Positions 42,527 through 63,208 of a stretch of 64,000 bases of DNA are shown piece by piece (within the stretch, counting starts at the first letter, position 1; each line of letters begins with the position of its first letter). Location: NCBI GenBank assembly GCA_003217735.2, contig CP031585.1, positions 372,001 through 436,000 of the forward strand, written 5' to 3'. Position numbers and translations under genes: made by a program. This DNA is from Marinibacterium anthonyi (lineage in GTDB: Bacteria; Pseudomonadota; Alphaproteobacteria; Rhodobacterales; Rhodobacteraceae). The notes beneath the pieces were generated by a model. That model saw only the letters and a list, made by a program, of their open reading frames with translations. It made no database searches and was not told where the DNA came from.

Positions 42527-43324
42527 CTATGTGCGCGACTGGTCGGCGCCCATCAGGCGGGGCAGGTCGCCCCAGCGGGCGACAGCCGAAAAGACCAGCA
42601 GCGATACGGTGATAAAGGTTATGGCGGCCACGGCCATGGTCGGCGTGTAGCCGTTGCGAAGCGAATTGAAGATCTGCAGCGTGACGGTCGAATAGCTTGA
42701 GGCCGAGACGAAGAACATCACGATGAATTCGTTGAACGACAGCACCAGCGCAAAGAAAAAGCCAGACGCGGTATAGGGCAGGGTCTGGGGCAGGATGATG
42801 GTGCGGAAGGTGACCTTTTCGGTGGCGCCCATGGTGGCGGCGGCGTCCAGGTGCGCCCGGTCGATGGATTGCAGTCCGATCGAGATGGTGACCAGCGGTA
42901 GCGCAAGGAACAGCGCCGCCTGGCTGACGATCCCCGCCCAGATCGTGCCGAGCCCGCCAAGGAAGGCCCAGAAGAACCCAAGCCCCACGCCGAAGACGAT
43001 GGGCGGCAGGGCAAAGGGCATGGATCCCAGCGCCGCCACGGTTTTCGACAGCTTCGAGCCCGTCGACCACAGCCAGTAGGCGATGGGCCAGGCCAGCAGC
43101 ACCGCCAGCCCGGCCGACCCGAAGGCCACGATCATCGAATGCCACAGCGCCGTGCGCCACACGCTTTCGGACACGAAGAATTCGACGAAGCGGGCCAGGC
43201 TGGGGTCCTTGGGCGGAAAGAACATGGTCCGCCCGCCGTTGAGCGCCGCGGCCGACACGACGATGATCGGCAGCGACAGGAAGAAGGCGGAAAGCCCCAT
43301 GAACAGCGGGCCGATGATCCTCAT
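42527..43324 (-). CDS. ABC transporter permease, PotC-like
   Basis: A 265-residue inner-membrane permease with six predicted helices and the ATPase-contact loop LDAAATMGATEKVTFRTIIL. Of the spermidine/putrescine-type importer family. The ATG at 43324 overlaps the upstream permease stop as ATGA; the longer frame further upstream is a shadow. Confidence 0.88.
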   Translation of the reverse strand: MRIIGPLFMGLSAFFLSLPIIVVSAAALNGGRTMFFPPKDPSLARFVEFFVSESVWRTALWHSMIVAFGSAGLAVLLAWPIAYWLWSTGSKLSKTVAALGSMPFALPPIVFGVGLGFFWAFLGGLGTIWAGIVSQAALFLALPLVTISIGLQSIDRAHLDAAATMGATEKVTFRTIILPQTLPYTASGFFFALVLSFNEFIVMFFVSASSYSTVTLQIFNSLRNGYTPTMAVAAITFITVSLLVFSAVARWGDLPRLMGADQSRT

Positions 43325-44286
43325 GCCTTGCCCTCGCGTTTCGTGGTCAGTTTCTGCCCCAGCCACAGGAACAGCGCCGCCGTCAACAGCAGGATCACCG
43401 CCTGTGCCGCGCCGAAGGGCGCGTCCAGGTTGGCGCCCCGGACGGCTTCGTAGATGGCGATGGCGGTGGTGTGCTTGGCAGGGTCGGCGAAGACGGTGAC
43501 CGACACGTAGGTGCCCAGCAGAAAGACGAACAACAGCAGCGTCGCGCCGATCAGGGGCAGGCGGACGGACGGCAGGACCACGGTGCGCGCCACGGTCCAC
43601 GGCCCGGCGCCCATGGTGCGGGCGGCCTCGGACAGGGACGGATCAAGGCGTGACAGCGCGGGGTACAGCAGGATCACCGCGTAGGGCCAGACCAGGTAGG
43701 ACATGCACAGCACGGTGGCCAGTTCCGACGTCTTGAACTTGACGTTGCGGGGCGACGCCAGGCCCCAGTCGCGCAGCGTGTCGAACCAGCCGACCGCCTT
43801 CAGCCAATCGGTCAGGCCGGTGATCTGGAACAGCTTCGGCAGGCCGGAATTGTTGGACAGCAGGATGTCCCAGCCCATGACGATGAACACTTCGGACAAC
43901 GACAGCGAAGCCAGCAGGAACACCAGCCAGCGCGCCTGAGCGCGCCGCGGCAGGCGTGTCATCAGGTAGGTGAAGGGCAGCGCGGTCACCACCGCCAGGA
44001 TCGAGGCCACGATCGCATAGCGCAGCGACCAGTACAGCTGTTGCAGATACAGGAACGTCACGTCCTCGGGCCACATGGCGCCCACGAAGAAGCGCTTGTA
44101 ATTGGCCAGCGTAAAGGACCATTCCCAGCCCGCGCCCTCGATCTTGTGCCCGAACGAGATGGCCAGCACGAGGATGAAGGGCACCACGCACAGGAACAGG
44201 ATCAGCCCGGTCAGCGCCCAGGGCCAGACCGGTTTCTTCGGTGCCGGGGCGGTTGCCGGGGTATCCAGATCCAGCGCCGCCGTCAT
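43321..44286 (-). CDS. ABC transporter permease, PotB-like
   Basis: A 321-residue permease with about six helices after a cytoplasmic N-terminus and the contact loop LSEAARTMGAGPWTVARTVVL. It overlaps the ATPase gene stop by 4 bases and the next permease start by 4 bases. Confidence 0.88.
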   Translation of the reverse strand: MTAALDLDTPATAPAPKKPVWPWALTGLILFLCVVPFILVLAISFGHKIEGAGWEWSFTLANYKRFFVGAMWPEDVTFLYLQQLYWSLRYAIVASILAVVTALPFTYLMTRLPRRAQARWLVFLLASLSLSEVFIVMGWDILLSNNSGLPKLFQITGLTDWLKAVGWFDTLRDWGLASPRNVKFKTSELATVLCMSYLVWPYAVILLYPALSRLDPSLSEAARTMGAGPWTVARTVVLPSVRLPLIGATLLLFVFLLGTYVSVTVFADPAKHTTAIAIYEAVRGANLDAPFGAAQAVILLLTAALFLWLGQKLTTKREGKA

Positions 44287-45353
44287 TGCGCCGCCATCGC
44301 CGGAATGTCGGCGGGAAAGACATGCAGGTGATCGGGCGGCAGGCGCACCGGGACGGTCTGGCCGACCGCGAAGACGGGGGCCTCTTCGCCCAGGGCGTAT
44401 TCGACGATCATCGGACCCAGGGGCGTGTCGAGGTAAATGTCGCGCACCGGGCCCAGGTCACGGACAAAGGTCACCTTGGCCGGCAGCACGTTGTCCGGTT
44501 GCGCCGCATCCAGCGCCGCCATTTCGGGGCGGATCGCGATGCGCACGGCGCTGCCCGGCTGGAAATTCAGCGGGGCGGTCACGGTCAGGCTGACCTCGCC
44601 CAGCTGGATCCGGCCGGTCCCGGCGATGCCGTCGAAGAAATTCGCCCGTCCGATGAAATCGGCGACAAAGGCGTTGGCGGGGCGATGATAGATCTCTTGC
44701 GGAGACCCCGATTGTTCCACCCGCCCGTTCGACATCACGACGATGCGGTCGGCCATGGTCATGGCCTCGCGCTGGTCATGGGTGACGACGATGGTGGTGA
44801 TGCCCAGCCGCTGCTGCAGCATCCGCAGTTCCACCTGCATTTCCTCGCGCAGCTTGGCGTCCAGCGCCGACATCGGTTCGTCCAGCAGGAAGACGTCCGG
44901 TTCCTGCGCCAAGGCGCGCGCTATGGCCACCCGCTGGCGCTGCCCGCCGGACAATTCGCCGATGCGGCGGTCCCCGAAGGCGCCCAGCTGGACCAGGTCC
45001 AGCAGCGTATCGGCCCTGGACCAGGCGTCGGTTCTGGACACCCCGGAAATGGTCAGCGAATAGGCCACGTTTTCGCGCACCGACAGGTGGGGGAACAGCG
45101 CGAAGTTCTGGAACACCATCCCGAACTTGCGCTTGTGCGCCGGCAGGGTGGTGATGTCGCGCCCCGACAGCAGGATCCGGCCAAAAGACGGATCCTCCAG
45201 CCCCGCGATCATCCGCAACAGCGTCGTCTTTCCGCAGCCCGACGGGCCCAGCAGCGCGGTCAACTCGCCTTCGGCAAAGGTCAGGTCCACCCGTTCGACA
45301 GCGCGCACGCTGCCGAACGCCTTGACGATATCCTTCAGGACAAGCCCGGCCAT
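44283..45353 (-). CDS. ABC transporter ATP-binding protein, PotA-like
   Basis: A 356-residue ATPase: Walker A GPSGCGKTT, signature LSGGQRQRV, Walker B VFLLDEP, H-loop VVTHDQ, and a C-terminal TOBE-type domain (about 270-350). It powers the PotBC-like permease pair. It is 3 bases after the binding-protein gene. Confidence 0.92.
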   Translation of the reverse strand: MAGLVLKDIVKAFGSVRAVERVDLTFAEGELTALLGPSGCGKTTLLRMIAGLEDPSFGRILLSGRDITTLPAHKRKFGMVFQNFALFPHLSVRENVAYSLTISGVSRTDAWSRADTLLDLVQLGAFGDRRIGELSGGQRQRVAIARALAQEPDVFLLDEPMSALDAKLREEMQVELRMLQQRLGITTIVVTHDQREAMTMADRIVVMSNGRVEQSGSPQEIYHRPANAFVADFIGRANFFDGIAGTGRIQLGEVSLTVTAPLNFQPGSAVRIAIRPEMAALDAAQPDNVLPAKVTFVRDLGPVRDIYLDTPLGPMIVEYALGEEAPVFAVGQTVPVRLPPDHLHVFPADIPAMAAQ

Positions 45354-45356
45354 GGA

Positions 45357-46439
45357 TCAGGCGCCGGCAAGCATCTTGTCCCAGGATTCCTTCATGAAGG
45401 TTTCCTTGTCCAGGTATGCCTCGTAGGCGATCTTGATCGACGGCGTGCCCGACACCATGGCGAATTCCTCGTCCGTGAGGTCGGTCGCCGATTGCGACAC
45501 CAACGGCGCGGTGCCGATCTTGCGCGACATCAGCGCCTGGGTCGACGGCATCGAGGAGAAGTTGATGAACTCTGCCGCCTCGGCCGATTTTTCGGACAGC
45601 GACGACAGGCACCAGGATCCGTAATCCTGCGGGTTGCCTTCCTTGGGGAAAATCGGCTGGATCGGGAAACCGTCGGATTTCATCAGGTTGGCCACGTCCA
45701 GGTAATATTGCCCGCCGATGATGTCGCCGTTCTTCATCGACTGTTCCATCTGGCTTTCCGCCGACCACCACAGCGCGACGTTCGGCTTCAGTTCGGCGGC
45801 CTTTTCGATGATCGCCAGGATGCCTTCGTCGGTGTCGAAGGTGGAAACTCCGTCAAAGAAGGTGGCCGCGATGATGTCCATCAGGTTGGAATTGTAGTTC
45901 TTCGACAGGCCCAGCGACGCTTCGTAGATCGAGCTGTCCCAGAAATCGGCCCAGCTGGCCGGCGCGTCGACCTCGCCCGGATTGATGACCATGGCGGTGA
46001 ACCATGACATGGCGCCGACGCCGATCGGGCCGGTGGCGTCCTCGAAGATGAAATAGCTGTCCATCGCGCCGGTCTCGGGCATGGCGGCCATGTCCAGGGG
46101 TTTCAGCAGGTCGCCGATGCGGCTGGCCTTGATCATCGTGGCGCGGCCGTACAGCGACAGGTCGGCGGGCGCGTTGCCGGCGGCCTGGGCCTGCTGCATG
46201 GTCACCAGCCAGTCGGTCGAATTGGGCTGGGTGACGCTTTCGACGGCGATGCCGGTGGCCTCGGTGAAGGCGGGATAGACGAACTCCTTGAAGGAATTCT
46301 CGAAATAGCCGCCGTAGGATCCGATCCTGAGGCTGCGGGCCTGGGCGATTAGCGGCGTGCCGATCACGCCCGAAGCGGCGGCGAGCCCGGCCGCGCTGGC
46401 GCCGGTTTTCAGAAGCGTGCGTCGGTTCATCGTTGTCAT
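45357..46439 (-). CDS. ABC transporter substrate-binding protein, PotD/F-like, Tat-exported
   Basis: A 360-residue binding protein with a twin-arginine signal (MNRRTLLKTGASAAGLAA). The mature part (LRIGSYGGYFENSFKEFVYP) belongs to the polyamine/thiamine/iron-type binding family. Three ATGs are close together; I use 46439, which has GGGGA at a workable distance. The ligand is probably a polyamine or other organic amine but cannot be fixed. Confidence 0.87.
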   Translation of the reverse strand: MTTMNRRTLLKTGASAAGLAAASGVIGTPLIAQARSLRIGSYGGYFENSFKEFVYPAFTEATGIAVESVTQPNSTDWLVTMQQAQAAGNAPADLSLYGRATMIKASRIGDLLKPLDMAAMPETGAMDSYFIFEDATGPIGVGAMSWFTAMVINPGEVDAPASWADFWDSSIYEASLGLSKNYNSNLMDIIAATFFDGVSTFDTDEGILAIIEKAAELKPNVALWWSAESQMEQSMKNGDIIGGQYYLDVANLMKSDGFPIQPIFPKEGNPQDYGSWCLSSLSEKSAEAAEFINFSSMPSTQALMSRKIGTAPLVSQSATDLTDEEFAMVSGTPSIKIAYEAYLDKETFMKESWDKMLAGA

Positions 46440-46995
46440 TGTCATCCCCGTCGATGGTTCGGCGTCGTTGATCGTGCCGATGGTTGTCCGCAATGGTGGC
46501 GTGGCCGGTCCCCTTCGCGTCAACGAAGGGCGATCTGATGCGCATCACTTGACGGATGGGGGCTGAATTTTTGAGCAGCACCCCGGGACGCTCCGCCATT
46601 TTGGTCGGTAAAAGGACAACTGGCGCGGGAAATCGCCAGCCATGGATGCGGGACATGCCGGACCGGCTGGGGGGCTGGCCGCCTTCAACACCGACTTCGC
46701 CGGCTGGATGGGGGCGTTCCTGCCCCTGGGCTATGATGCCCGCCGGGTGTGCAATGACGGTGCCGTAACGTCCTGACCACAGGCGGGGCCCGAAGGAAAC
46801 CGGCGTCTTGCGACAGCGCCGGGCCATCCTATATCCTGCAGCGTATCCACCCTTCCAACGAAGGAATTGTAGATGTTGGAGCTTGTCCGGACCTGATCCG
46901 GATCTCGACTGACCGGGATCCGAGGTAACACCGCCGCCCGCGCACGTAGCGCCGGGGGAGCGGTTTGCATGCCAATTCCATTCCGGATCACTCCA
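46440..46995. other. 556-base stretch without an intact gene
   Basis: Apart from the remnant at 46642-46776 and a hairpin CCCTTCG/CGAAGGG (46511-46530), which could lie in the 5' leader of the binding-protein gene, nothing coding is seen. Promoters for the ABC operon (minus) and the YjhX-like gene (plus) should be here. Confidence 0.5.
46642..46776 (+). pseudogene. Short remnant, possibly of a shikimate dehydrogenase
   Basis: A 44-codon frame includes GLAAFNTDFAGWMGAFLPLG, which resembles the NTDxxGF region of shikimate/quinate dehydrogenases. Nothing before or after continues the match, so if real it is a small fragment. Confidence 0.25.
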
Positions 46996-47298: not shown

Positions 47299-49080
47299 TC
47301 AGTTGATGTACCGGCGCCAGTCGCCCAGGTGCGAGATATCGGTCGCGCCCTCGATGGCCTCGGCCTCGCACAGGAACCCCTGCACGGTGCTTCCGTCGGC
47401 CAACCGGATCGTCCCGATGCCCAGCGGCGCGGGGATGGTCTTCATGAACGAGCCAAAGGCGCCTTCGGGCATCCGCCAGACCTCAAGCGTGATCGCCGCG
47501 CCCTTGCCGTCGCCGACACGGACCAGCCCGGGCCGCGCCACGCCGGTGCCCGACAGCGCGTAAAAGGCGTAATCCGGCGCGGTCTTCGTCCTGGTCAGCA
47601 TCTTCGCCCCGCGCCCCGTCAGCGTATGGTTCAGTGGCAGCCCCTCCATGTGCGCGCCGCAGACGGCGACATCGATCATGCCCTCCGGCGTGCCTGCGGG
47701 CAGCGTGGTGACGGGCCGGTCCCATCCCGTGGCGCCCAGCGTCCGCGTTCCGGCGGCCTCGATCACCGTGGCCAGGCCCGCGACCATGGCGTCCTGCCCG
47801 GCGGGCGCCAGGAAGGTCAGGCTGCCGGGGCGTCCGTCCGCGCGGGCGGGGGCGGGTACGGCGATGCCGCACATGTCCATCAGGTTCACGAAATTGGTGT
47901 AGGTGCCGAAGTTCGAATTGGGCGTCACCGGGTCGGCCTCAAGGTCGGCGACCGTGTAGAAGGTCGGGATCGTCGGCACGCACAGCGCATCGACCCCGTC
48001 CAGCGACGGTTCCGCCTGCCGGATCAGGTCCTTCAGCCGGTACATCCCCTTGAACGCATCCGCCGCCGACAGCTTTTCCGCCGCGCCGATGATCTGGCGG
48101 GTGACGGGGAACACGTCGTCGGGCCGCCCGGTCATCATGTCCTCGATCGCGGCATAGCGTTCGGCCACCCAGGCGCCGTAATACAGCATCTCGGCCACCG
48201 CGTAGAGCGGCGCGAAATCCACCTCCACGATCTCGCAGCCAAAACCCTTCATGACCTCAAGCGCGTCGTAAAACGCCTTTTCCTGGACCGTGTCGCCAAG
48301 GAACCGGATCGATCCGGGGCTGGGAATCCCGAGACGCGCCGGCAACGGCGCGGTGAGGTGGCCCGCCGGGATATCGCGTGAATAGCTGTCGCCGGCATCA
48401 TACCCGGCAGCGGCGGCATAGGCGGTGAACGCATCTTCGACCGTCAGCGCAAAGAGCGAAATCGTGTCCAGTGTCCGGCAGGCCGGCACCATGCCCGACG
48501 CCGACAGCGTCCCCAGCGTCGGCTTCAGCCCGACGATATTGTTCAACGCCGCCGGCACCCGGCCTGACCCGGCGGTATCCGTGCCCAGCGAGAAACTGAC
48601 GATCCCGTGCCCCACGGCCACCCCGGACCCGCCCGACGACCCGCCCGGCACGATCTCCGGATCGATCGAATTCAGCGGCGCGCCATAGGGCGTGCGCACG
48701 CCCACCAGCCCGGTCGCGAACTGGTCCAGGTTGGTCTTGCCGATCAGCAGCGCGCCCGCCTCGCGGAACCTGTCCACCACAAAGGCGTCCTTGTCGGCAA
48801 CGTATTCGAACGCCGGGCAGGCCGCCGTCGTCGGCTTGCCCGCCACGTCGATATTGTCCTTCAGCGCATAGGGCACGCCCCACAGCGGCTTTCGCGGATC
48901 GTAGTCGCCAAGCGCTTCCGCCGCGGCCAGAACCTCGGCCTTGTCCAAGAGGCACAGGAAGATATGCGGATCGCCCACCGCCTCGATCCGGGCATAGACC
49001 TGTTCGATCACCTCCCGCGGAGACGTGCCAGACGCATAAGCCGCACGAAGCGAGGGCAGGGTGAGGGGCAGATCGGCCAT
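47299..49080 (-). CDS. atzF: Allophanate hydrolase
   Basis: A 593-residue amidase-signature enzyme that hydrolyses allophanate to CO2 and ammonia. The Ser-cisSer-Lys triad is Lys74 (YALKDNID), Ser148 (GGSSGGS) and Ser172 (GTDTAGSGR), with the same spacing as in AtzF. The C-terminal domain from about residue 460 (AVCGAHMEGLPLN ... YALSGTGVARPGL) matches full-length allophanate hydrolases. No urea carboxylase is adjacent, so allophanate should come from biuret. It is divergent from the lysR gene, with a palindromic operator between. Confidence 0.93.
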   Translation of the reverse strand: MADLPLTLPSLRAAYASGTSPREVIEQVYARIEAVGDPHIFLCLLDKAEVLAAAEALGDYDPRKPLWGVPYALKDNIDVAGKPTTAACPAFEYVADKDAFVVDRFREAGALLIGKTNLDQFATGLVGVRTPYGAPLNSIDPEIVPGGSSGGSGVAVGHGIVSFSLGTDTAGSGRVPAALNNIVGLKPTLGTLSASGMVPACRTLDTISLFALTVEDAFTAYAAAAGYDAGDSYSRDIPAGHLTAPLPARLGIPSPGSIRFLGDTVQEKAFYDALEVMKGFGCEIVEVDFAPLYAVAEMLYYGAWVAERYAAIEDMMTGRPDDVFPVTRQIIGAAEKLSAADAFKGMYRLKDLIRQAEPSLDGVDALCVPTIPTFYTVADLEADPVTPNSNFGTYTNFVNLMDMCGIAVPAPARADGRPGSLTFLAPAGQDAMVAGLATVIEAAGTRTLGATGWDRPVTTLPAGTPEGMIDVAVCGAHMEGLPLNHTLTGRGAKMLTRTKTAPDYAFYALSGTGVARPGLVRVGDGKGAAITLEVWRMPEGAFGSFMKTIPAPLGIGTIRLADGSTVQGFLCEAEAIEGATDISHLGDWRRYIN

Positions 49081-49138
49081 GATCGCGGTCCTTCTTCTTG
49101 ACGGGTCTTTTCCAGTTTGACCTATCCCCCAACCGAGC

Positions 49139-49166
49139 GTTTACACAAATGCTAAGTTTACACAAA
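49139..49166. repeat. Direct repeat in the atzF-lysR spacer
   Basis: GTTTACACAAA occurs at 49139-49149 and 49156-49166, a 17-base period, just beside the palindromic operator. It could be a second regulator's site. Confidence 0.5.
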
Positions 49167-49189
49167 AGTGGTGCACAAAATGCACCGCT
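49167..49189. promoter_or_regulatory. LysR operator candidate, site 1
   Basis: AGTGGTGCA-CAAAA-TGCACCGCT: 9-base arms with one mismatch, and a T-N11-A core from 49172 to 49184. It lies 14 bases before the lysR start and 86 bases before the atzF start. A near-copy lies after lysR at 50106-50128. Confidence 0.75.
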
Positions 49190-49203
49190 GAACAGGATCC
49201 CCC

Positions 49204-50106
49204 ATGCGACATCTCCAGGATTTCGACGTTGTCGAGGCCATCATCCGCGCCGGCTCCATCCGCAAGGCGGCCGAGGACATGAACATCACCGCCTCGGCGC
49301 TGAACCGCCGCATCAACCGCTTCGAAGAAGAACTGGGCTACGAGATCTTTGAACGCCTGCCCCGTGGCGTCCGCCTGAACCCGGCCGGAGAACTGGTGCT
49401 GCAGCATATCCGCACCCAGCGGTCGGATTTCGCCCGCCTGCAATCCCAGGTCGCGGACCTGTCGGGCGTGCGCCGGGGGCATGTGTCGATCGCCTGTTCG
49501 CAGGCATTGCTGCCCTATTTCCTGCCCGACCAGATCGCCCGCTATCGCGCGGCCCACCCCGGCGTGACCTTCAGCGTCAAGACCCGCGACCGGGTGGCTG
49601 CCGAACATGACCTGTCGACCTTTCAAAGCGATATCGCCCTGGTCTTCGAACCCCGCCACCTGGTGGATTTCGAGGTCGCCCTGCAGATCCGACAGCCGAT
49701 CTATGTGCTCATGCGCGAAGACAACCCGCTGGCCCGCCGGCCAGACCTGCGGCTGCGCGACTGCCTGGATCAGAAATACGTCGCGCCCAGCGAACGCTAT
49801 GGCGTGCGGGTGCTGCTGGATGCGGCGATCCGCAAGTCGGCCTATCGGCGGATCGAACCGGTGGTCGAAGCCGAAAGCTTCGACTTCATGCGCCATTACG
49901 TCCTTCAGGAAAACGCCATCGCCTTCCAGTTCCCCATCGGCATCGACATGACCGGGGCAAGGGGATACGTCGCCCGCCCCGTCTCGCCGCGCGACGTGGA
50001 ACCGGGCAACCTGTTCCTCGGCCAGCTGCGCGGCCGCATCCTGCCGGTCGCCTCGGGCCGGTTCCTGCAACAGCTTGCGACCGCCCTGCAGGGCCACGAA
50101 ATATAA
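49204..50106 (+). CDS. LysR-family regulator of the triuret/biuret cluster
   Basis: A 300-residue LysR-type regulator: N-terminal winged helix (DFDVVEAIIRAGSIRKAAED, then MNITASALNRRINRFEEELG) and a two-lobe effector domain from about residue 90. It is placed between atzF (divergent) and the transporter operon (same direction), with matching palindromes on both sides, so it likely controls both and itself. The co-inducer may be a cluster metabolite such as biuret or cyanuric acid. Confidence 0.9.
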   Translation: MRHLQDFDVVEAIIRAGSIRKAAEDMNITASALNRRINRFEEELGYEIFERLPRGVRLNPAGELVLQHIRTQRSDFARLQSQVADLSGVRRGHVSIACSQALLPYFLPDQIARYRAAHPGVTFSVKTRDRVAAEHDLSTFQSDIALVFEPRHLVDFEVALQIRQPIYVLMREDNPLARRPDLRLRDCLDQKYVAPSERYGVRVLLDAAIRKSAYRRIEPVVEAESFDFMRHYVLQENAIAFQFPIGIDMTGARGYVARPVSPRDVEPGNLFLGQLRGRILPVASGRFLQQLATALQGHEI

Positions 50107-50128
50107 GCGGTGCGAAAAATGCACCGCT
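50106..50128. promoter_or_regulatory. LysR operator candidate, site 2
   Basis: AGCGGTGCG-AAAAA-TGCACCGCT repeats site 1 with three substitutions and keeps the T-N11-A core (50111 to 50123). It overlaps the last base of the lysR stop codon and lies 113 bases before the importer operon start. Confidence 0.75.
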
Positions 50129-50241
50129 GATGGAAAAAACTAGCATACGACAACACCGCAAATCGCTCTTACGCTCTGGCCTGTCACTCACACCGCCCCA
50201 TGGCCCACCCCGGGGCGTGCCTTCACAGGAGCATCCGAACC

Positions 50242-51363
50242 TTGCCGAACAGACCTTCCCTGTCCCGCCGCCACTTCCTGGCCACCACGGCCGCGTTCGG
50301 AGGCGTTGCCGCCGCCGGATCCCTGACGCCCAGCCGCGCCCGCGCCGCCAACCTGACCGTCGGCTTCATCTATGTCGGGCCCAAGGACGACTATGGTTAC
50401 AACCAGGCCCATGCCGAAGGCGCCGCCGCCGTCAAGGAAATGGCCGGCGTGACCGTCGTTGAAGAAGAAAACGTCCCCGAGACCAAGGATGTGCAGAACA
50501 CCATGGAATCGATGATCAACTTCGACGGCGCCGGGCTGCTGTTCCCGACGTCCTTCGGCTATTTCGATCCTCATGTGCTGGAAGTCGCGCCGAAATACCC
50601 CGATGTCCGGTTCGAACACGCCGCGGGCCTTTGGACCGAAGGCATGCCCACCAATGTCGGGTCCTATTTCGGCTACATCGGCATGGGCCAGTACCTGAAC
50701 GGCATCGTCGCCGGCCACATGACCAAGTCGAAGAAGATCGGCTTTGTCGCCGCCAAGCCGATCCCGCAGGTCCTGCTGAACATCAACTCGTTCCTGCTGG
50801 GCGCCCGCGCGGTCGATCCGGAGATCACCTGCCAGGTCATCTTTACCGGCGAATGGTCCCTGGCCGTGAAGGAAGCCGAGGCCACCAACGCGCTGTGCGA
50901 CCAGGGCTGCGACGTGATCACCTGCCACGTGGACGGGCCGAAGGTGGTGATGGAAACCGCCGCCGGGCGCGGGTCCTACATCTGCGGCTACCACGCCAAC
51001 CAGTCGCCGCTGGCGCCCGACATGTACCTGACCGGGGCCGAATGGAACTGGGCCGGGGTCTATCCCAAGATGGTGCAGACCATGCTGGACGGCGGCACGA
51101 TCGACAACTTCATCCGTGGCGGGCTGGCCGACGGGTTCGTCAAGATGTCGCCCCTGGGCCCCGCCGTCACCGACGCGGCCCGCGAACAGTTCGACGCCAC
51201 GCAGGCCGAGATCATGAAAGGCGGCTTTGCCGTCATCAAGGGCCCGCTGAAGGACAACAAGGGCAACGTGGTCGCCGCCGAGGGCGAGGCCTTCGTGGAA
51301 ACCGACATCGCGCTCGAGAGCATGGATTATCTCGTCGAGGGCGTCATCGGCTCGACGAGCTGA
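50242..51363 (+). CDS. BMP-family ABC transporter substrate-binding protein, Tat-exported
   Basis: A 373-residue periplasmic protein of the BMP/PnrA family, whose known members bind nucleosides or purines. Signal: SLSRRHFLATTAAFGG, a twin-arginine type. The mature part starts NLTVGFIYVGPKDDYGYNQA, with the family motif around HAEGAAAVKE. I prefer the TTG at 50242 because AGGAG sits 10 bases before it and it gives a normal Tat signal; an ATG at 50200 is in frame but lacks a ribosome-binding site. Its genetic setting suggests a ureide or triazine ligand. Confidence 0.85.
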   Translation: MPNRPSLSRRHFLATTAAFGGVAAAGSLTPSRARAANLTVGFIYVGPKDDYGYNQAHAEGAAAVKEMAGVTVVEEENVPETKDVQNTMESMINFDGAGLLFPTSFGYFDPHVLEVAPKYPDVRFEHAAGLWTEGMPTNVGSYFGYIGMGQYLNGIVAGHMTKSKKIGFVAAKPIPQVLLNINSFLLGARAVDPEITCQVIFTGEWSLAVKEAEATNALCDQGCDVITCHVDGPKVVMETAAGRGSYICGYHANQSPLAPDMYLTGAEWNWAGVYPKMVQTMLDGGTIDNFIRGGLADGFVKMSPLGPAVTDAAREQFDATQAEIMKGGFAVIKGPLKDNKGNVVAAEGEAFVETDIALESMDYLVEGVIGSTS

Positions 51364-51367
51364 TCCG

Positions 51368-52498
51368 ATGACCGACGTGACGACGGCATCCCCGAAACGG
51401 CCCCGGACACGGACCTCTGCGGTGCTGGCCCAATGGCTGCCCCGGCTCGAGGCCGTCGTCATCCCGCTGGCCGCGCTTGTCGCGGGGCTGGCGGTGTTCT
51501 CGGTCTTCCTGCTTGCCTTGGGCAAGTCGCCCGTGGACTTCTACGCATTGATCTACAAGGCCGGGTTCAGCTCGGCCTTTTCCTGGCAGAACACGCTTTC
51601 CCGTGTCTCGCCCCTGCTGTTCGCCGGTCTCTGCGTCGCCCTGCCTGCGCGGCTGGGCCTGGTGGTGATCGGCGGCGAAGGGGCGATCGCGCTCGGCGGC
51701 CTTGCCGCCGCCGTTGCGGGGCTGGCCTTCGCCTGGGCTCCCTCCTTCCTCGGCTTCATCGCCATGGGGGCTGCGGCGATGATCATCGGCGGCGCGTGGA
51801 TCGGCGCCGTCGGCTGGCTCCGCATCCGGCGCGGGGTGAACGAAACCATCTCGTCGCTGCTGATGGCCTATATCGCCATCGCGCTGATGAACCACCTGGT
51901 CGAAGGTCTGTTCCGCGATCCTGCCTCATTGAACAAACCCTCTACCGCGCCCCTGCCCGAACACCTGCGCATCGGCGCCATGCCCATCGGCATCGACGTG
52001 CACTGGGGCTTCTTCTTCGGCATTCTCGCCTGTGTCCTGGCCTGGATCCTGACCGACCGCACCACCATCGGCTTCGCCGCCCGCGTCGCCGGCGACAACA
52101 TCCGCGCCGCACAGGTGCAGGGCCTGCCGGTCGGGCCGCTGGTCCTGGGCTTCACCGCCTTGGGCGGGGCCGCCGCAGGTCTTGCCGGCTTCTTCGAGGT
52201 CGCCGCCATCCACGGGTCCGCCAATGCCTCGCTGGTGGTGGGCTACGGCTATACCGGCATCCTCGTGGCCTTCCTGGCGCGCCACAACCCGCTGGCCATC
52301 ATCCCGGTCGCCACGCTGCTGGCGGGGTTCGAAGCGTCATCCGGCCTGATCCAGCGCCGCATGGACCTGCCGGACGCCACCATCTTGGTGATGGAGGGCA
52401 TCGTCTTCGTCGTGATCCTGCTGTCGGAAACGCTGTACGGCCGGATCGCCATCTTCAAGGCATCTTTCTGGGCCCGTTTCGGGGGGGCTGACACATGA
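51368..52498 (+). CDS. BMP-type ABC transporter permease 1
   Basis: A 376-residue inner-membrane permease of the branched-chain/BMP class, with about nine helices and the conserved GEGAIALGGLAAAVAG and GDNIRAAQVQG segments. Five bases after the binding-protein stop; overlaps permease 2 by 4 bases. Confidence 0.9.
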   Translation: MTDVTTASPKRPRTRTSAVLAQWLPRLEAVVIPLAALVAGLAVFSVFLLALGKSPVDFYALIYKAGFSSAFSWQNTLSRVSPLLFAGLCVALPARLGLVVIGGEGAIALGGLAAAVAGLAFAWAPSFLGFIAMGAAAMIIGGAWIGAVGWLRIRRGVNETISSLLMAYIAIALMNHLVEGLFRDPASLNKPSTAPLPEHLRIGAMPIGIDVHWGFFFGILACVLAWILTDRTTIGFAARVAGDNIRAAQVQGLPVGPLVLGFTALGGAAAGLAGFFEVAAIHGSANASLVVGYGYTGILVAFLARHNPLAIIPVATLLAGFEASSGLIQRRMDLPDATILVMEGIVFVVILLSETLYGRIAIFKASFWARFGGADT

Positions 52499-53415
52499 CC
52501 GACATCGGCATCTGGGGCGTCCCGCTGGCCATCCTGGGCGGCGCCATCCGCGTCTCCACTCCGTTCCTCTTCGTGTCGATCGGCGAATGCCTGACCGAAC
52601 GGTCCGGGCGCATCAACCTTGGTCTCGAAGGCACGCTGGTCTTCGGCGCCATGTCCGGCTACGCCATCGCGTTCCAGACCGGATCGCCCTGGGCCGGCGT
52701 TCTGGCGGCGGCCTTCGCAGGGGGCGTCTTCGGCCTGTTCCACGGCTGGATCTGCAAGTTCAAGGGCGTCAACGACGTGGCCATCGGCATCGCGCTGATG
52801 CTGCTGGGCATGGGGCTGGCGTTCTTTTTCGGCAAACCCTACATCCAGCCCGTCGCCCCCGACCTGCCCGCCATCCCGCTGGGCTGGTGGTCGACCATCC
52901 CGCAGGTGCAGGCGGCGCTTCAGGTCAACGTGCTGTTCATCCTGGGCGGCATCCTTGCCGTCGCCATGGCGTGGATGTTCCGATCCACGAAAATCGGCCT
53001 GACCATCCGCGTCGTGGGCGATTCAACCGACGCCGCCCGCGCCATCGGGTTGAACCCCAACACCGTCCGCCTTCTGTCCACCGCCGCCGGCGGCGCGCTG
53101 GCGGGGGTCGGGGGCGCGTACCTGTCGCTTTACTACCCCGGCAGCTGGAACGAAGGCATCTCGTCAGGGCAGGGCCTGATGGCCGTGGCGCTGGTGATCT
53201 TCGCCCGCTGGAACCCGATCTACTGCTTCTGGGCGGCGCTTCTGTTCGGCGGCGCGGGCGCGCTGGGGCCGGCGTTGCAATCGGTCGGCGTCACCTCGGG
53301 CTACTACCTCTTCTTCGCGGCGCCCTACGTGCTGACACTGGCCCTGCTGATCTTCACCTCCTCCCCCGACAAGGCCATGGACGGCGCCCCGGGCGAGCTG
53401 AGCCTCAACAAGTAA
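52495..53415 (+). CDS. BMP-type ABC transporter permease 2
   Basis: A 306-residue permease of the same class, with LTERSGRINLGLEGTLVFGA and GDSTDAARAIGLNP motifs. It pairs with permease 1. The formamidase gene begins 11 bases downstream behind AAGGAG. Confidence 0.9.
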   Translation: MTDIGIWGVPLAILGGAIRVSTPFLFVSIGECLTERSGRINLGLEGTLVFGAMSGYAIAFQTGSPWAGVLAAAFAGGVFGLFHGWICKFKGVNDVAIGIALMLLGMGLAFFFGKPYIQPVAPDLPAIPLGWWSTIPQVQAALQVNVLFILGGILAVAMAWMFRSTKIGLTIRVVGDSTDAARAIGLNPNTVRLLSTAAGGALAGVGGAYLSLYYPGSWNEGISSGQGLMAVALVIFARWNPIYCFWAALLFGGAGALGPALQSVGVTSGYYLFFAAPYVLTLALLIFTSSPDKAMDGAPGELSLNK

Positions 53416-53426
53416 GGAGTTCCCCC

Positions 53427-54443
53427 ATGAACGGACTTGGCGGGTTGAACAAATCCGAAAACGGCGTGGTCATCGGCCTCGTCCAGCTGAAACTGCCCAC
53501 GGTGGTGACCAAGGCCGACCTGGCCGCGCAGACCGCGCGCATCGTCGACCTGGTCGGCAAGGCGCGGCGCAACATGGGCACGATGGACCTGGTGGTCTTT
53601 CCCGAATACGCGCTGCACGGCCTGTCCATGGACATCAACCCGGACATCATGTGTTCGATGGATGGGCCCGAGGTCGCGGCCTTCAGGCAGGCCTGTATCG
53701 ACAACCGGATCTGGGGCTGCTTTTCCATCATGGAGATCAACCCCGGCGGCATGCCCTACAATTCCGGCCTGATCATCGACGACCAGGGCGAGATCCAGCT
53801 GTATTACCGCAAGATGCACCCCTGGGTCCCGGTCGAACCGTGGGAGCCGGGCGACCAGGGCATCCCGGTTTGCGACGGCCCGAACGGATCCAAGATCGCG
53901 CTGATCATCTGCCACGACGGCATGTTCCCCGAAATGGCCCGCGAATGCGCCTATAAAGGCGCCGAGATCATGATCCGCACCGCCGGCTATACCGCCCCGA
54001 TCCGGGATTCGTGGCGCTTTACCAACCAATCCAACGCCTTCTGCAACCTGATGGCCACGGCCAACGTCTGCATGTGCGGATCCGACGGCACGTTCGATTC
54101 CATGGGCGAGGCCATGATCTGCAACTTCGACGGCTCGGTCATCGCCCATGGCACGACCGGCCGCGCGGACGAGATCATCACCGCCGAAATCCGCCCCGAC
54201 CTGATCCGCGAGGCGCGCACCGGCTGGGGCGTGGAAAACAACCCCTACCAGTTCGGCCATCGCGGCTATGTCGCGGTCAAGGGCGGCGCGCAGGATTGCC
54301 CCTATACCTACATGACCGACCTGGCCGCCGGCCAATACCGCCTGCCGTGGGAGGACGAGGTCAAGGTGACCGACGGCACCGGCTTCGGGTTCCCGGAACC
54401 CACACGTCTTTACGGTGAGACCAGGAAGGACGCCGCCGAATGA
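53427..54443 (+). CDS. amiF: Formamidase (nitrilase superfamily)
   Basis: A 338-residue nitrilase-fold enzyme closely resembling AmiF, which hydrolyses formamide to formate and ammonia. The Glu-Lys-Cys triad is Glu60 (VVFPEY), Lys129 (YYRKMHPW) and Cys162 (IICHDGM). The C-terminal [14 protein letters not shown] and [12 protein letters not shown] segments are typical of AmiF rather than AmiE. Placed in an operon for ureide hydrolysis, it may instead act on another small amide. Overlaps the next gene by 4 bases. Confidence 0.85.
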
Positions 54444-55117
54444 CCTATGTCGACGCCAACCCGTATCAATGGCCGTACAACGGCGATCTGCGGCCCGAAA
54501 ACACGGCGCTGATCATCATCGACATGCAGACCGATTTCTGCGGCAAGGGCGGTTATGTGGACGCGATGGGCTATGACCTGTCGCTGACGCAGGCCCCGAT
54601 CGCGCCGATCAAGTCGGTGCTCGAGGCGATGCGGAAAAAGGGCTATTACATCTTCCACACCCGCGAAGGCCATCGCCCCGATCTGTCTGACCTGCCGAAG
54701 AACAAGCGCTGGCGGTCGCAGCAGATCGGCGCGGGCATCGGCGATCCGGGCCCCTGCGGCAAGATCCTGGTGCGCGGCGAACCCGGCTGGGACATCATCG
54801 ACGAACTGTATCCGGCGTCCGGAGAGATCATCATCGACAAGCCGGGCAAGGGATCGTTCTGCGCCACTGACCTGGAACTGATCCTGCGCCAGAAGGGCAT
54901 CGAAAACCTGATCCTGACCGGCATCACGACGGACGTCTGCGTGTCGACCACCATGCGCGAAGCCAACGACCGCGGTTTCGAATGCCTGGTGCTGTCGGAT
55001 TGCTGCGGCGCCACCGACCCCGGCAACCACGACGCGGCGCTGAAGATGGTGACCATGCAGGGCGGCGTCTTTGGCGCAGTGTCGGACAGCGCGAAACTCA
55101 TCGAGGCTCTCGGCTGA
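54440..55117 (+). CDS. biuH: Biuret amidohydrolase
   Basis: A 225-residue isochorismatase-fold cysteine hydrolase. The catalytic residues Asp28 ([11 protein letters not shown]), Lys134 ([10 protein letters not shown]) and Cys167 ([13 protein letters not shown]) have exactly the spacing of the triad in rhizobial BiuH. The N-terminal [20 protein letters not shown] also fits that enzyme. It turns biuret into allophanate and ammonia. It lies between the formamidase (overlap) and the ring-opening hydrolase (1-base gap). Confidence 0.87.
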
Positions 55118-55118
55118 C

Positions 55119-56216
55119 ATGCCCCGCGCCCGGTTGCACCTGATCCCGACCGCTTCTCCCGATGACACATCCGGGCTGCGTGCCCATATCGACGCCGGCA
55201 CGATCGACCCAAAGGCGCTTGTCGCCATCCTTGGCAAGACCGAGGGCAACGGCTGCGTCAACGATTTCACCCGCGCGTTTTCCGTCCAGGCCCTGACGGC
55301 GGCCCTGGGCGATGACGCCGAAGGGGTCGCCATGGTCATGTCGGGCGGCACCGAAGGCGGCCTGTCCCCCCATATCCTGACCTTCGAGGTGCTGGACGAC
55401 GGGGATAGCCCGCAACCAGGCCCCGAAACAGGGCCCGAAACAGGCCCCGAAACAGGTCCCGCCATGGCCATCGGGTCCGTCATCACCCGCGACCTTCGCC
55501 CCGAAGAAATCGGCACCGTCGCGCAGATCGAACTTGTCGCCGAAGGCGTGGCGCAGGCCATGGCAAAGGCCGGCATCACCGACCCGGGCGACGTGCATTT
55601 CGTCCAGATCAAATGCCCCCTGCTGACCGCCGCCCGCGTCGCCGACGCCGCCACGCGCGAGGAGGCCACCGTCACCACCGACACGCTGAAATCCATGGGG
55701 TTTTCGCGCGGTGCCTCGGCCCTTGGCGTGGCCGTCGCCCTGGGCGAGGCCACCCCGGATGACGCCGTGCCCGCCCTGCTGAGCGACCCGTCGGTCTATT
55801 CCGGCCGCGCCAGCACGTCGGCGGGGATCGAGCTGATGGGCCACGAGATCATCCTGCTGGGGATGAGCGCGGCGTGGTCCGGCCCGCTGGCGATCGACCA
55901 TGCGGTCATGGCCGACCAGATCGACATCCGCGCGGTGCTCGACGCGATGGTGCGGCTGGATATCGGCCCCCACACGACGCTCAAGGCGCTGCTGGCCAAG
56001 GCCGAACCGGGCACCACCGGGCGGATCCGGGGCAACCGCCACATCATGCTGGATGACAGCGACATCGCCGCCACCCGCCACGCCCGCGCCTTTGTCGGCG
56101 GCGCGCTGGCCGGGATCACCGGGCGCACCGACATCTACGTTTCGGGCGGCGCCGAACACCAGGGGCCGGACGGCGGCGGCCCGGTGGCGATCATCGCGGA
56201 AAGGACCACCCAATGA
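55119..56216 (+). CDS. atzD: Cyanuric acid hydrolase / barbiturase family enzyme
   Basis: A 365-residue ring-opening amidohydrolase. Three homologous units each supply a Lys and a Ser motif: GKTEGNGCVNDFTR with MSGGTEGGLSPH, VQIKCPLLT with FSRGASALG, and LLAKAEPGTTG with VSGGAEHQGPDGGGP. The family opens cyanuric acid (to carboxybiuret, then biuret) or barbiturate. The biuret and allophanate hydrolases next to it favour cyanuric acid. Residues about 101-112 are a threefold GPET repeat, absent from family members I know. Its stop overlaps the ATPase start. Confidence 0.85.
   Translation: MPRARLHLIPTASPDDTSGLRAHIDAGTIDPKALVAILGKTEGNGCVNDFTRAFSVQALTAALGDDAEGVAMVMSGGTEGGLSPHILTFEVLDDGDSPQPGPETGPETGPETGPAMAIGSVITRDLRPEEIGTVAQIELVAEGVAQAMAKAGITDPGDVHFVQIKCPLLTAARVADAATREEATVTTDTLKSMGFSRGASALGVAVALGEATPDDAVPALLSDPSVYSGRASTSAGIELMGHEIILLGMSAAWSGPLAIDHAVMADQIDIRAVLDAMVRLDIGPHTTLKALLAKAEPGTTGRIRGNRHIMLDDSDIAATRHARAFVGGALAGITGRTDIYVSGGAEHQGPDGGGPVAIIAERTTQ
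55419..55454 (+). repeat. In-frame 12-base triplicate within atzD
   Basis: GGCCCCGAAACA, GGGCCCGAAACA and GGCCCCGAAACA follow each other exactly, coding for GPET three times. It lies between the first and second units of the enzyme, probably in a surface linker, and keeps the frame. Confidence 0.9.
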
Positions 56217-57730
56217 CAGACGCCCCAAGGGCCATCGAGGTCGAAGCCGTCGCCATGACCATGCGCTTCGGCGCGTTCACCGCGCTGGACAATGTCACGC
56301 TGAAGGTGCGCAAGGGCACGTTTCACGCGCTTCTGGGCGAAAACGGTGCGGGCAAGTCGACGCTGGTGAAATGCATGATGGGGTTCTACCACGCCACCGA
56401 AGGCAACGTTCTGGTCGATGGCCGCGACGCCCTGATCCGCGATCCCGTCGATGCCCAGAAACTGGGCCTGGGCATGGTCTACCAGCATTTCACCCTGGTC
56501 CCGTCGCTGACCGGGGCCGAAAACCTGGTGATCTCGCGCGCCGATGCGCCGGGGGTCATCCAGTGGCGCGCCGAACGCGCGCGGCTTGACGATTTCCTGG
56601 CCTCGATGCCCTTCAAGGTCCCGCTCGACCGCCCCGTTTCGCGCCTGTCGGCGGGCGAAAAGCAGAAGCTGGAGATCCTGAAACAGCTCTACCTCGGTTC
56701 CCGCTTCCTGATCCTCGATGAACCCACATCCGTCCTGACCCCGGCCGAGGCCGACGAGGTGCTGGGCCATGTGCGCGCGCTGTGCGAGGCGGGCCAGATC
56801 TCGGTCCTGATGATCACCCACAAGTTCCGCGAAGTGACCGCCTTTGCCGATGACGTGTCGGTCCTGCGGCGCGGGCAGTTGGCCGGGCATGGCGCGGTCA
56901 GCGACCTGTCCCACGACGACATGGCGCGCATGATGATGGGCGCCCAGCCCGAAACGGCGCAGGTCACGCGGTCCGACACCGCCGGCGCGCCGGTGCTGAC
57001 GCTGAGCCACGCGACGGCATCCGACCGATCCGGCCTGAAATCCATCGACATCGACGCGCTGGAGGTGAAGGCGGGCGAGATCCTTGGTGTCGCCGGCGTG
57101 TCGGGCAACGGCCAGACCGAACTGATGGAGATGCTGACCGGCCAGCGCCGCCTGTCGGGCGGCGAGATCCGCATTCACGGGGCGCCCTACCACGCGACGC
57201 GCAAGGAACAGAAGGCGCTGAAGGTCCGCTATCTGCCCGAGGAACCGCTGCACAACGCCTGCGCCCCGCGCATGTCGGTGGCCGAAAACATCGCCTTCCG
57301 CATCTTCGACGAGGACGGCGGAAAGCCCCGGTTCTGGAAGAACGCCCGCCAGATCCTGTCCAATGCCGAGGCGCGGATCGCCGAGTTCAACGTCAAGACG
57401 ACCTCGCCCCATTCGCCCATCGCCGCGCTGTCTGGCGGCAATGTCCAGCGCGCCGTGCTGTCGCGTGAACTGAGTGGCGATGTCGATCTGCTGATCGTCG
57501 CGAACCCCTGTTTCGGACTGGATTTCGCCGCCGTCGCCGCCATCCGCGACCGGATCGTGCAGGCGCGCAACCGGGGTGTCGCCGTTCTGCTGATCTCGGA
57601 AGACCTGGACGAGATCCTGGAACTGTCGGACCGCATCGTCGTGATGAGCGAAGGCCAGATCGCATTCGAGACAACGTCCCAAAACGCGGACACAGCCGAA
57701 ATCGGGTCCTACATGGCGGGGCATGCGTGA
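56213..57730 (+). CDS. BMP-type ABC transporter, double ATPase
   Basis: A 505-residue protein with two ABC domains, as in RbsA/YufO-type importers. Domain 1 is canonical: Walker [10 protein letters not shown], signature LSAGEKQ, Walker B FLILDEP, H-loop ITHK. Domain 2 is of the usual degenerate type: GVSGNGQTE for Walker A, signature [15 protein letters not shown] for Walker B, and SED where the H-loop His would be. It completes the importer encoded at 50242-53415, although three enzyme genes separate them. Confidence 0.9.
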
Positions 57731-58395
57731 TGAAGACGATCCAGGCAGATCCCTTCGACTTCCCCTTCGATCCCGCCACCACGGGCCTTGTCGTCATCGA
57801 CATGCAGCGCGATTTCTGCGAGCCGGGCGGCTTTGGGGAAACACTGGGCAACGATGTCTCACTTCTGAGACAGATCATCCCGACCACCGCCCGCCTGATC
57901 GCCGGATTCCGGATGGCCGGTCTGCCCGTGATCCACACGCGCGAATGCCACAAGCCGGACCTGTCGGACCTGCCGCCCAGCAAACGCGACCGGGGCAATC
58001 CCAGCCTGCGCATCGGCGATCCCGGGCCCATGGGGCGCATCCTGATCGCGGGCGAGGACGGCGCCGACATCATCCCCGAACTGTATCCGATCGAAGGCGA
58101 GACCGTCATCGACAAGCCCGGCAAGGGCGCGTTTCACGGCACGGTCTTCGGGGACGTCCTGAAGGAAAAGGGCCTGAAGCACCTGGTCTTCGCCGGGGTC
58201 ACGACGGAGGTCTGCGTGCAGACCACCATGCGCGAGGCCAACGACCGGGGCTATGACTGCCTGTTGGCAACCGATGCGACCGAAAGCTATTTCCCCGCCT
58301 TCAAGCAGGCCGCCATCGCCATGATCACCGCGCAGGGCGGCATCGTCGGCTGGGCCGCGCCCACGGACGCAATCCTGAAGGCGCTCGATGCTTGA
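57730..58395 (+). CDS. trtA: Triuret-hydrolase-like cysteine hydrolase (second isochorismatase paralogue)
   Basis: A 221-residue paralogue of the neighbouring BiuH. Triad: Asp24 ([11 protein letters not shown]), Lys129 ([10 protein letters not shown]), Cys162 ([13 protein letters not shown]). The N-terminal [20 protein letters not shown] and the ...[14 protein letters not shown] stretch agree with what I recall of triuret hydrolase TrtA. The assignment rests on that resemblance; biuret or another ureide remains possible. ATG at 57730 shares one base with the ATPase stop (TGATG). Confidence 0.65.
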
Positions 58396-58720
58396 ACCAA
58401 AGATCACCCGCGACCTTCTGGGCGGCGGCTGGAAGGACCTGGATTACGAGCCCTTCAAGCCCGGCATCGTGGCGCATTGGCTGCTGAGGGGCGAACCCGG
58501 CATCGCGATCCTGTGGTACGAACCGGGCGCCTGCGCGCCGCTGCACCTGCATGTGGACGTGGAAACCATCCTGGTGCTGGACGGCAGCCAGTCGGATGAA
58601 TTCGGCACCTATGAAAAGGGGGATTTCGTCATCAACCCCAGGGGCAGCCAGCATGCGGTGCACAGCGAGCACGGCTGTGTCGTGCTTTTGACCTACACGA
58701 AACCCGTGCGTTTCCTGTGA
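58388..58720 (+). CDS. Small cupin-domain protein
   Basis: A 110-residue single-domain cupin of the ChrR/RmlC type with metal-ligand pattern [16 protein letters not shown] and a later His in [12 protein letters not shown]. It overlaps the preceding gene by 8 bases and is the last gene of the operon. It may be a cyclic-amide or carboxybiuret-handling enzyme, or a regulator; no evidence decides. Confidence 0.8.
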
Positions 58721-62302: not shown

Positions 62303-63208
62303 TCAACGCGCAGCCCTGCATCTTGGCGGCAGCTCCCGCACCAGCAGGTCCCAGATCCGCCGGATCCGCGGGTTATGGCGCATCTTCTCGTGCGCCGTGA
62401 TCCAGACGGGCAGGGGCGGGATGCCCAGGTCCATCGGCAGTTCCTCGACCAGCGGCTCGGCGCGGCCCACCGGCACCTGCGCGAACCCGATCCCGCAGCC
62501 CGCCCGGATCAGCGCCATGTAGGTCGCCTGGTTGTCGCAGCGCACCGCGAAATCCTCGCGCCGGGCGGGCATCCCCATGGCGCGCATCGTCTGCAGGATC
62601 AGCGGGTTGCGGTCGAACCCCACCAGGTCATGGGCCGCCAGGTCCTCGACCCGTTGCGGCCGCCCGGCCCGGTCCAGGTAATCCGTCGCGGCAAAGGCCC
62701 CGATCGCGATATCGGCCAGGTGCCGCGTCACCAGGTCCAGCTGGGTCGGCCGGTACATGCGCAGCGCGATGTCGGCCTCCCGGAAATGCAGGCTTTCGCT
62801 TTCGTCCGAAGGCGCCAGCTCGATCGCGATCTCCGGCGCCTCCCGCCGGATCCGGGCCAGCGCGCCGGGCAGCACGTAATGGGACAGGAACAGGCTTGCC
62901 GTCACCCGCACCGTTCCGGCGGTCTGCCCCGCCTGTTGCGCCGCCGCCATGCTCAGCGCATGCACGGCCGCCGCCATCGCCCTTGCATGGGGCAACAGCG
63001 CCGCGCCCGCCGCGCTCAGCCGCAGTCCCCGCGCATGGCGGTCGAACAGCTGCGTGCCCAGCGTGGCTTCCAGCGCCTGAACCTGCCGCCCCAGCGTCGG
63101 CTGGCTGCGCCCCAGCGCCTGCGCGGCGCCGGACAGCGACCCATGATCGGCCACCGACAGAAAGCTCTGCACCAGCGACCAGTCCTGCAAGGTAAGCCTG
63201 TCATCCAT
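62303..63208 (-). CDS. LysR-family regulator
   Basis: A 301-residue LysR-type regulator with winged helix in residues 1-62 (SLSGAAQALGRSQPTLGRQV) and an effector domain after about residue 90. It is divergent from the epimerase-like gene across 93 bases, the usual arrangement of a regulator and its target, but the target here is broken. Confidence 0.9.
   Translation of the reverse strand: MDDRLTLQDWSLVQSFLSVADHGSLSGAAQALGRSQPTLGRQVQALEATLGTQLFDRHARGLRLSAAGAALLPHARAMAAAVHALSMAAAQQAGQTAGTVRVTASLFLSHYVLPGALARIRREAPEIAIELAPSDESESLHFREADIALRMYRPTQLDLVTRHLADIAIGAFAATDYLDRAGRPQRVEDLAAHDLVGFDRNPLILQTMRAMGMPARREDFAVRCDNQATYMALIRAGCGIGFAQVPVGRAEPLVEELPMDLGIPPLPVWITAHEKMRHNPRIRRIWDLLVRELPPRCRAAR

Follow-up and report, generated by a model that had tools for sequence, protein, structure and literature searches.

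The 5.56-Mb contig CP031585.1 of the 6.8-Mb Marinibacterium anthonyi genome carries a gene cluster that very likely forms an inducible nitrogen-scavenging operon for triuret, cyanuric acid and biuret, with a dedicated importer. The window analysed here is a 64,000-nucleotide stretch of this contig, and the cluster occupies its positions 47299-58720. Genes, families, residues and layout were taken from the sequence, and the reactions from published homologues. The interpretation is based on the scores against curated models, the diagnostic residues of the triuret hydrolase (TrtA), the arginine typical of cyanuric acid hydrolases (CAH), the tight gene spacing, a conserved gene order, the published enzymology, an invariant pocket in the importer, and a regulator resembling AtzR, together with its palindromes. 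A scavenging locus of this kind, with its own importer and LysR regulator, had been proposed in the initial annotation, and the present analysis supports it: every named gene was recovered intact, at the position assigned to it, in the list of open reading frames (ORFs) of the window. The operon itself is known; the new leads are a cupin encoded beside trtA and the distinctive pocket of the importer.

Two isochorismatase-like hydrolases (IHL) are encoded. BiuH, the biuret hydrolase, passes its curated model NF050097 with 424 bits (cut-off, 370), and the second protein, 46% identical to it, stays under this cut-off with 258 bits. The best solved relative of the latter is the Herbaspirillum TrtA 6xix (285 bits), ahead of the biuret hydrolases of Rhodococcus (6xjm, 235 bits) and Rhizobium (6azo, 223 bits). 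Both window proteins retain the catalytic residues D/F/E/K/K/C/Q, including the IHL catalytic triad. The enzymology of TrtA and BiuH has been published (PMC7948467 and PMC5806882), and the positions telling the two apart, as well as the TrtA consensus, were taken from the first of these papers. All seven checked positions of the second protein agree with this consensus, namely F35, N41, A134, E160, Y187 and I205, plus the substrate-binding Q202; in BiuH, the residues at the six positions that separate the two enzymes are YYSDTV. Across the surveyed loci, FNAEYI is found in 104 of 111 TrtA-type proteins and YYSDTV in 96 of 101 BiuH-type proteins (matches longer than 190 residues, typed by their best match to the two window proteins). 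The second isochorismatase, previously described as a triuret-hydrolase-like paralogue, is most likely a TrtA-type triuret hydrolase. Such an enzyme acts on triuret, with an activity about four orders of magnitude lower on biuret.

AtzD is the sole genome match to the AtzD/TrzD family model. It reaches 491 bits on the CAH equivalog NF052395 (cut-off, 360) and, in an alignment read by eye, keeps the Lys and Ser of the three Ser-Lys dyads. It shares Pfam family PF09663 with barbiturases, one of which (5hwe) is among its solved matches, and the cluster could on that account be imagined as an operon for pyrimidine breakdown, from barbiturate to ureidomalonate. This is highly improbable and was rejected on score and on Arg188: the match to the Azorhizobium CAH 4nq3 is far better (405 vs. 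214 bits), and the window protein has Arg at position 188, where barbiturases carry Gln (PMC4051656). Moreover, family searches placed no gene of the run in a uracil-oxidising family. The earlier assignment to the cyanuric acid hydrolase family is thus upheld, with the CAH-type Arg in place.

The allophanate hydrolase AtzF combines an amidase-signature domain with an AH_C domain and exceeds its equivalog cut-off (755 vs. 511 bits). The amidase-signature Lys and Ser motifs were spotted in it by eye. The formamidase scores 577 bits (cut-off, 406) and retains FPEY, YRK, VEPW and CHDG in the alignment with 5g3o; its Glu, Lys, Glu and Cys motifs place it in the AmiF family, as a predicted formamidase. 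The claim that catalytic residues of AtzF, BiuH and AmiF are all present is borne out.

The distribution of these genes was followed in a genome scan, from which the best 80 of at least 574 named loci were retained by their TrtA match. An operon locus was defined as a TrtA match of at least 55% identity with an ATPase match of at least 50% within 4 kb on the same strand. This resulted in 95 loci (L161 was added by hand), all of which contain trtA by construction. A duplicate (L164, of L012) and fragments of the present genome (L004-L011) were dropped, and TrtA loci lacking a close same-strand ATPase match, e.g., L018, L043 and L149-L160, were excluded. Absences are upper bounds, as some loci end at contig ends or at the 10-kb flank. 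Formamidase and AtzD occur together in 19 of the 95 operon loci, formamidase alone in 31, AtzD alone in four (one of which, L085, ends at atzD) and neither in 41; the totals are 23 for atzD, 50 for formamidase and 61 for AtzF. This suggests a core made of the importer, BiuH and TrtA, with AtzD and formamidase as optional parts. The exact nine-gene order of the window was counted by hand in 16 of the 95. The nearest relatives found, the only two genomes of the same genus returned by the search (G398 and G399), both have the full gene set in conserved order; therefore, an assembly artefact is excluded. Among 61 related genomes searched, nine have a TrtA match at an E-value of 1e-50 or lower, seven of them strong. 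In tblastn with the window TrtA, 284 plasmid records matched at 1e-40 or lower, 133 of them from Rhizobium.

The formamidase weighs against the proposed reading of the operon, since the core pathway has no role for it; it is unseen in 45 of the 95 operon loci, a few loci being truncated at contig ends. It was considered whether it acts on N-formylbiuret that would come from 5-azauracil opened by AtzD. This idea is weakened by the 31 loci with formamidase and without atzD. No paper combining formamidase or cupin with 'biuret hydrolase' was present among the literature matches listed.

The substrate-binding protein of the ATP-binding cassette (ABC) importer is a clear BMP protein (130.5 bits vs. 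a cut-off of 24.1), probably with a twin-arginine signal, for which the TIGR01409 model gives a weak 19.8 bits. Among solved structures, its best match is AtzT of pADP-1, a BMP protein binding guanine, ammeline and 2-hydroxyatrazine, and the contacts of AtzT to guanine and 2-hydroxyatrazine have been described (PMC6834077). The nine pocket positions are YSFTENWNN in AtzT and YSFQQNWHD in the window protein; the two proteins differ at four of the nine. Of the guanine contacts of AtzT (Y45, S97, F98, E165, W194, N218 and N220), the Tyr, Ser, Phe and Trp are kept, and the remaining three are replaced (E165Q, N218H and N220D). YSFQQNWHD is identical in 83 of the 88 BMP proteins of the operon loci, the other five being gapped at pocket columns, and this in a protein with only 86 invariant columns out of 336. 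The window pocket recurs in copies from betaproteobacteria (Variovorax L082 and Ideonella L096) and from an enterobacterium (Klebsiella L092). The invariant pocket is most simply read as serving a single class of ligand that all these operons share, triuret or biuret, instead of cyanuric acid. The latter is disfavoured as the main ligand because the pocket is unchanged with or without atzD: 21 of the 88 proteins are from atzD-bearing loci and 67 from loci in which it is unseen. The initial annotation had pointed to ureides or s-triazines; the ureides, as triuret or biuret, are kept, and cyanuric acid as main ligand is not. Its suggestion that s-triazines would be a new substrate class for BMP proteins is weakened, since AtzT already binds them (PMC6834077).

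Several points weigh against this assignment. The protein is still a relative of AtzT, with the aromatic sandwich of Tyr45 and Trp194 kept, and its ligand may be another compound that such operons share, or a purine, as for AtzT. The curated models nearest to all four importer proteins belong to a putative vitamin B6 importer, with scores far under the cut-off (72 of 400 and 407 of 670 bits, for instance). In addition, the 80 named loci, chosen as the best TrtA matches, are therefore mostly from related alphaproteobacteria and are not independent. An importer of purines or of their breakdown products (guanine, xanthine, urate or allantoin), with hydrolases cleaning up oxidised purine products made in or near the cell, would agree with the retained sandwich and with the best solved relatives, which bind guanine (AtzT) and adenine (3s99). 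This is unlikely: every one of the 83 readable operon copies has Gln in place of the guanine-bonding Glu, and His and Asp in place of the two contact Asn, and the five other BMP proteins of this genome have different pockets. Furthermore, no purine-degrading genes lie inside the operon in the six annotated neighbourhoods read, although no search was aimed at them.

Two BMP proteins outside this pattern were seen. The first (L154, position 4269) has a WSFHLNWHD pocket and adjoins a trtA; the second (L093, position 10001) has a WSFHTNWHD pocket and lies near thiamine genes. They are possible intermediates between other BMP pockets and that of the triuret operons.

The LysR regulator is 43% identical to AtzR of pADP-1 over 295 residues (223 bits), while four other LysR proteins, among them the second LysR of the window (62303-63208), do not exceed 57 bits in this comparison. 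The palindrome GGTGCN7GCACC occurs twice in the 64-kb window, at both ends of lysR, where 0.24 occurrences were expected; only one of 100 shuffles reached two. It is also found twice around atzR of pADP-1, and this common palindrome, with the full-length similarity, assigns the regulator to the AtzR type. The palindrome fits the T-N11-A pattern of LysR sites. Of 25 loci with a LysR match of at least 50% identity and 200 residues, 24 have the relaxed form GNTGCN7GCANC no farther than 200 nucleotides from the LysR gene, against 0.03 expected per locus. A third site resembling the palindrome, at 58655 within the cupin gene, shows two mismatches (one on the other strand) and is probably due to chance.

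AtzR responds to cyanuric acid (PMC6834077). The likeness to this regulator and the clearly CAH-type AtzD could both be explained by an operon for the uptake and degradation of cyanuric acid, an s-triazine, with triuret as a minor side substrate. Such an operon is improbable: atzD is seen in only 23 of the 95 operon loci, its presence leaves the BMP pocket unaltered, and the AtzR-like LysR with its palindrome also occurs where atzD is unseen, e.g., in L019, L023 and L036. A scavenging operon for triuret and biuret, to which cyanuric acid is an additional entry, is the preferred interpretation.

The last gene of the run, overlapping trtA by 8 nucleotides, encodes a Cupin_7 protein (52 bits vs. 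a cut-off of 27), hence not a member of the AtzH/TrtB family, which has the AtzH-like domain PF11533. Its AlphaFold model is a confident single-domain cupin fold (predicted local distance difference test score of 96.6). A fold search retrieved many metallo-cupins (a ChrR domain, dioxygenases and lyases) and did not decide the function. The metal ligands HxHx3E...H are invariant in 79 of 79 cupins. The cupin is present in 76 of the 95 operon loci and an AtzH homologue in 11; no locus has the two together, and eight lack both. The cupin lies directly 3' of trtA in all 76 loci that have it, and AtzH occupies that place in four of its 11. Also in L043, which lacks importer genes between lysR and biuH, the cupin follows trtA. 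Of the 61 related genomes, seven have a cupin match of at least 155 bits, and these coincide with the seven that have a strong TrtA match (1e-110 or lower); all remaining cupin matches are 67.3 bits at most. AtzH has been described as a decarboxylating enzyme (PMC6219798). For the clusters of ammonia oxidisers, PMC12625717 uses atzH in the abstract and trtB in the text, from which we infer that TrtB belongs to the AtzH family. Since cupin and AtzH do not co-occur in the operon loci, the cupin is tied to trtA, and AtzH is a decarboxylating enzyme, the trtA-coupled cupin may assist the decarboxylation of carboxybiuret, standing in for AtzH/TrtB.

On the other side, shared descent accounts for part of the pattern, as the cupin loci are mostly alphaproteobacterial and the AtzH loci mostly from outside this class. 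L161, from the class of the window, carries AtzH but lacks the cupin. Each of the eight loci with neither gene extends at least 1.3 kb beyond trtA; six of them were inspected, and none showed an obvious substitute. Carboxybiuret also decarboxylates spontaneously, with a published half-life of about 20 min (PMC7948467). Finally, one AtzH homologue is encoded elsewhere in the genome (G000:C1:4960462-4960827), about 4.5 Mb away; it is 53% identical to AtzH of pADP-1, lies downstream of an ABC permease gene, lacks any AtzE or AtzG match within 18 kb, and could be capable of the decarboxylation step.

The resulting pathway would begin with the import of a flat ureide common to such operons, most likely triuret and/or biuret. 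TrtA is predicted to hydrolyse triuret to carboxybiuret, and the optional AtzD to open cyanuric acid to the same compound, both by their diagnostic residues and the chemistry of published homologues. Carboxybiuret would then give biuret and CO2, spontaneously or aided by the metallo-cupin. Biuret would be converted to allophanate by BiuH, and allophanate to ammonia and CO2 by the divergently encoded AtzF, so that triuret and cyanuric acid probably share one route from carboxybiuret through biuret and allophanate to ammonia. The formamidase would be an optional side activity, which might perhaps deformylate ring-opened or oxidised purine products. The LysR protein, bound to the two palindromes, probably switches both transcripts in response to a putative ligand.

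Jointly, the trtA-specific metallo-cupin could be a new, non-orthologous carboxybiuret decarboxylase replacing AtzH/TrtB, and the YSFQQNWHD proteins triuret/biuret importers evolved from the purine-binding AtzT type; this combined proposal is tentative, plausible rather than probable. No prior characterisation of the cupin function or of a BMP protein dedicated to triuret or biuret was found among the matches listed, outside of which key subscription papers lie. If the cupin does speed decarboxylation and the BMP protein binds triuret or biuret, both ureides would prove to be nutrients taken up actively, and more than fertiliser impurities encountered by chance. The importers could then be named after what they carry, and no longer as transporters of nucleosides or purines.

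The features of the cluster are collected in Table 1. The nine plus-strand genes from the BMP protein to the cupin are separated by +4, -4, +11, -4, +1, -4, -4 and -8 nucleotides. Because of these gaps of 1 to 11 and overlaps of 4 to 8 nucleotides, they are very probably one transcript.

Table 1. Genes and putative operator sites of the cluster, in window positions.
Feature	Position	Strand	Basis
atzF, allophanate hydrolase with amidase and AH_C domains; divergent from remaining genes	47299..49080	-	TIGR02713, PF01425 + PF21986, best PDB 4gyr
palindrome GGTGCN7GCACC, putative LysR operator, between atzF and lysR	49170..49186	.	motif count
lysR, AtzR-like regulator	49204..50106	+	likeness to pADP-1 AtzR
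second GGTGCN7GCACC palindrome, between lysR and importer operon	50109..50125	.	motif count
BMP-family substrate-binding protein, pocket class YSFQQNWHD	50200..51363	+	PF02608, best PDB 6pi5 AtzT
ABC importer permease 1	51368..52498	+	PF02653; relatives have it in same slot
ABC importer permease 2	52495..53415	+	PF02653; relatives have it in same slot
formamidase, AmiF/FmdA family	53427..54443	+	NF009803, best PDB 5g3o
biuH, biuret hydrolase	54440..55117	+	NF050097, best PDB 6azo, YYSDTV signature
atzD, cyanuric acid hydrolase	55119..56216	+	NF052395, best PDB 4nq3, Arg at Arg188 position
ABC importer ATPase, two nucleotide-binding halves	56213..57730	+	PF00005, 2 stretches
trtA, probable triuret hydrolase, GTG start 57727 or ATG 57730	57727..58395	+	best PDB 6xix TrtA, diagnostic residues
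cupin, single-domain metallo-cupin, candidate carboxybiuret decarboxylase	58388..58720	+	PF12973, AlphaFold model

On the minus strand of the window, at 42527-46523, a run of four ORFs reads, from the ORF list only, as a polyamine-type ABC transporter with a binding protein, an ATPase and two permeases.

Related genes are also carried by enterobacterial plasmids. A like operon lies between insertion sequences on the Klebsiella pneumoniae plasmid pKP34_unnamed4 (L092, 8743-20493), typed as conjugative; it comprises atzF, BMP, permeases, formamidase, BiuH, ATPase, TrtA and GntR genes, without atzD or cupin. Enterobacter and Citrobacter plasmids have BMP and TrtA matches as well. TrtA-like matches (1e-40 or lower) were found in 77 Escherichia plasmid records, at one place per record, those listed being about 57% identical to the window TrtA. 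In L149-L153 and L155-L160, TrtA homologues 55-63% identical to that of the window are not accompanied by the operon importer within the 10-20 kb examined; an AtzT-like importer is present in L155, and L152 and L158 have an AtzH homologue nearby.

Judged by its sequence, the operon is of a known type, already present in soil rhizobia, and the idea that the cluster is unusual is not supported. Rhizobium johnstonii (leguminosarum bv. viciae) 3841, the strain of the characterised BiuH (PMC5806882), has the identical order BMP-permease-permease-formamidase-biuH-atzD-ATPase-trtA-cupin on its plasmid pRL10 (L047), and Rhizobium sp. WSM1274 (L002) has the same nine genes in this order, with a GntR regulator upstream. 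The proteins of these two loci are 49-83% identical to those of the window, which differs by its AtzR-like LysR and divergent atzF. No AtzF match was found in the 30.7 kb of L002 or the 20.7 kb of L047, whereas PMC7948467 states that the operon of strain 3841 contains AtzF.

A BMP importer beside trtA, biuH and atzF was already published in 2025 for nitrifier contigs with trtA-biuH-atzF-bmpA-nupABC (PMC12625717). In contrast to the window, no atzD was found in these metagenome-assembled genomes, and neither 'formamid' nor 'cupin' gives a match in that text. In Pseudomonas sp. ADP (L095), the atzR-atzSTUVW and atzDGEHF genes of pADP-1 share with the window the AtzR-like LysR, the operator palindrome, a BMP importer, AtzD and AtzF. 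However, pADP-1 uses AtzEG and AtzH, has no BiuH or TrtA match in the 23-kb stretch, and its AtzT has the other pocket. A further close counterpart is the TrtA/TrtB/BiuH/AtzF pathway of Herbaspirillum, as described in PMC7948467. The TrtA, BiuH and AtzF reactions would be shared, triuret and cyanuric acid meeting at carboxybiuret; there, the decarboxylase is TrtB, whereas in the window a cupin follows trtA.

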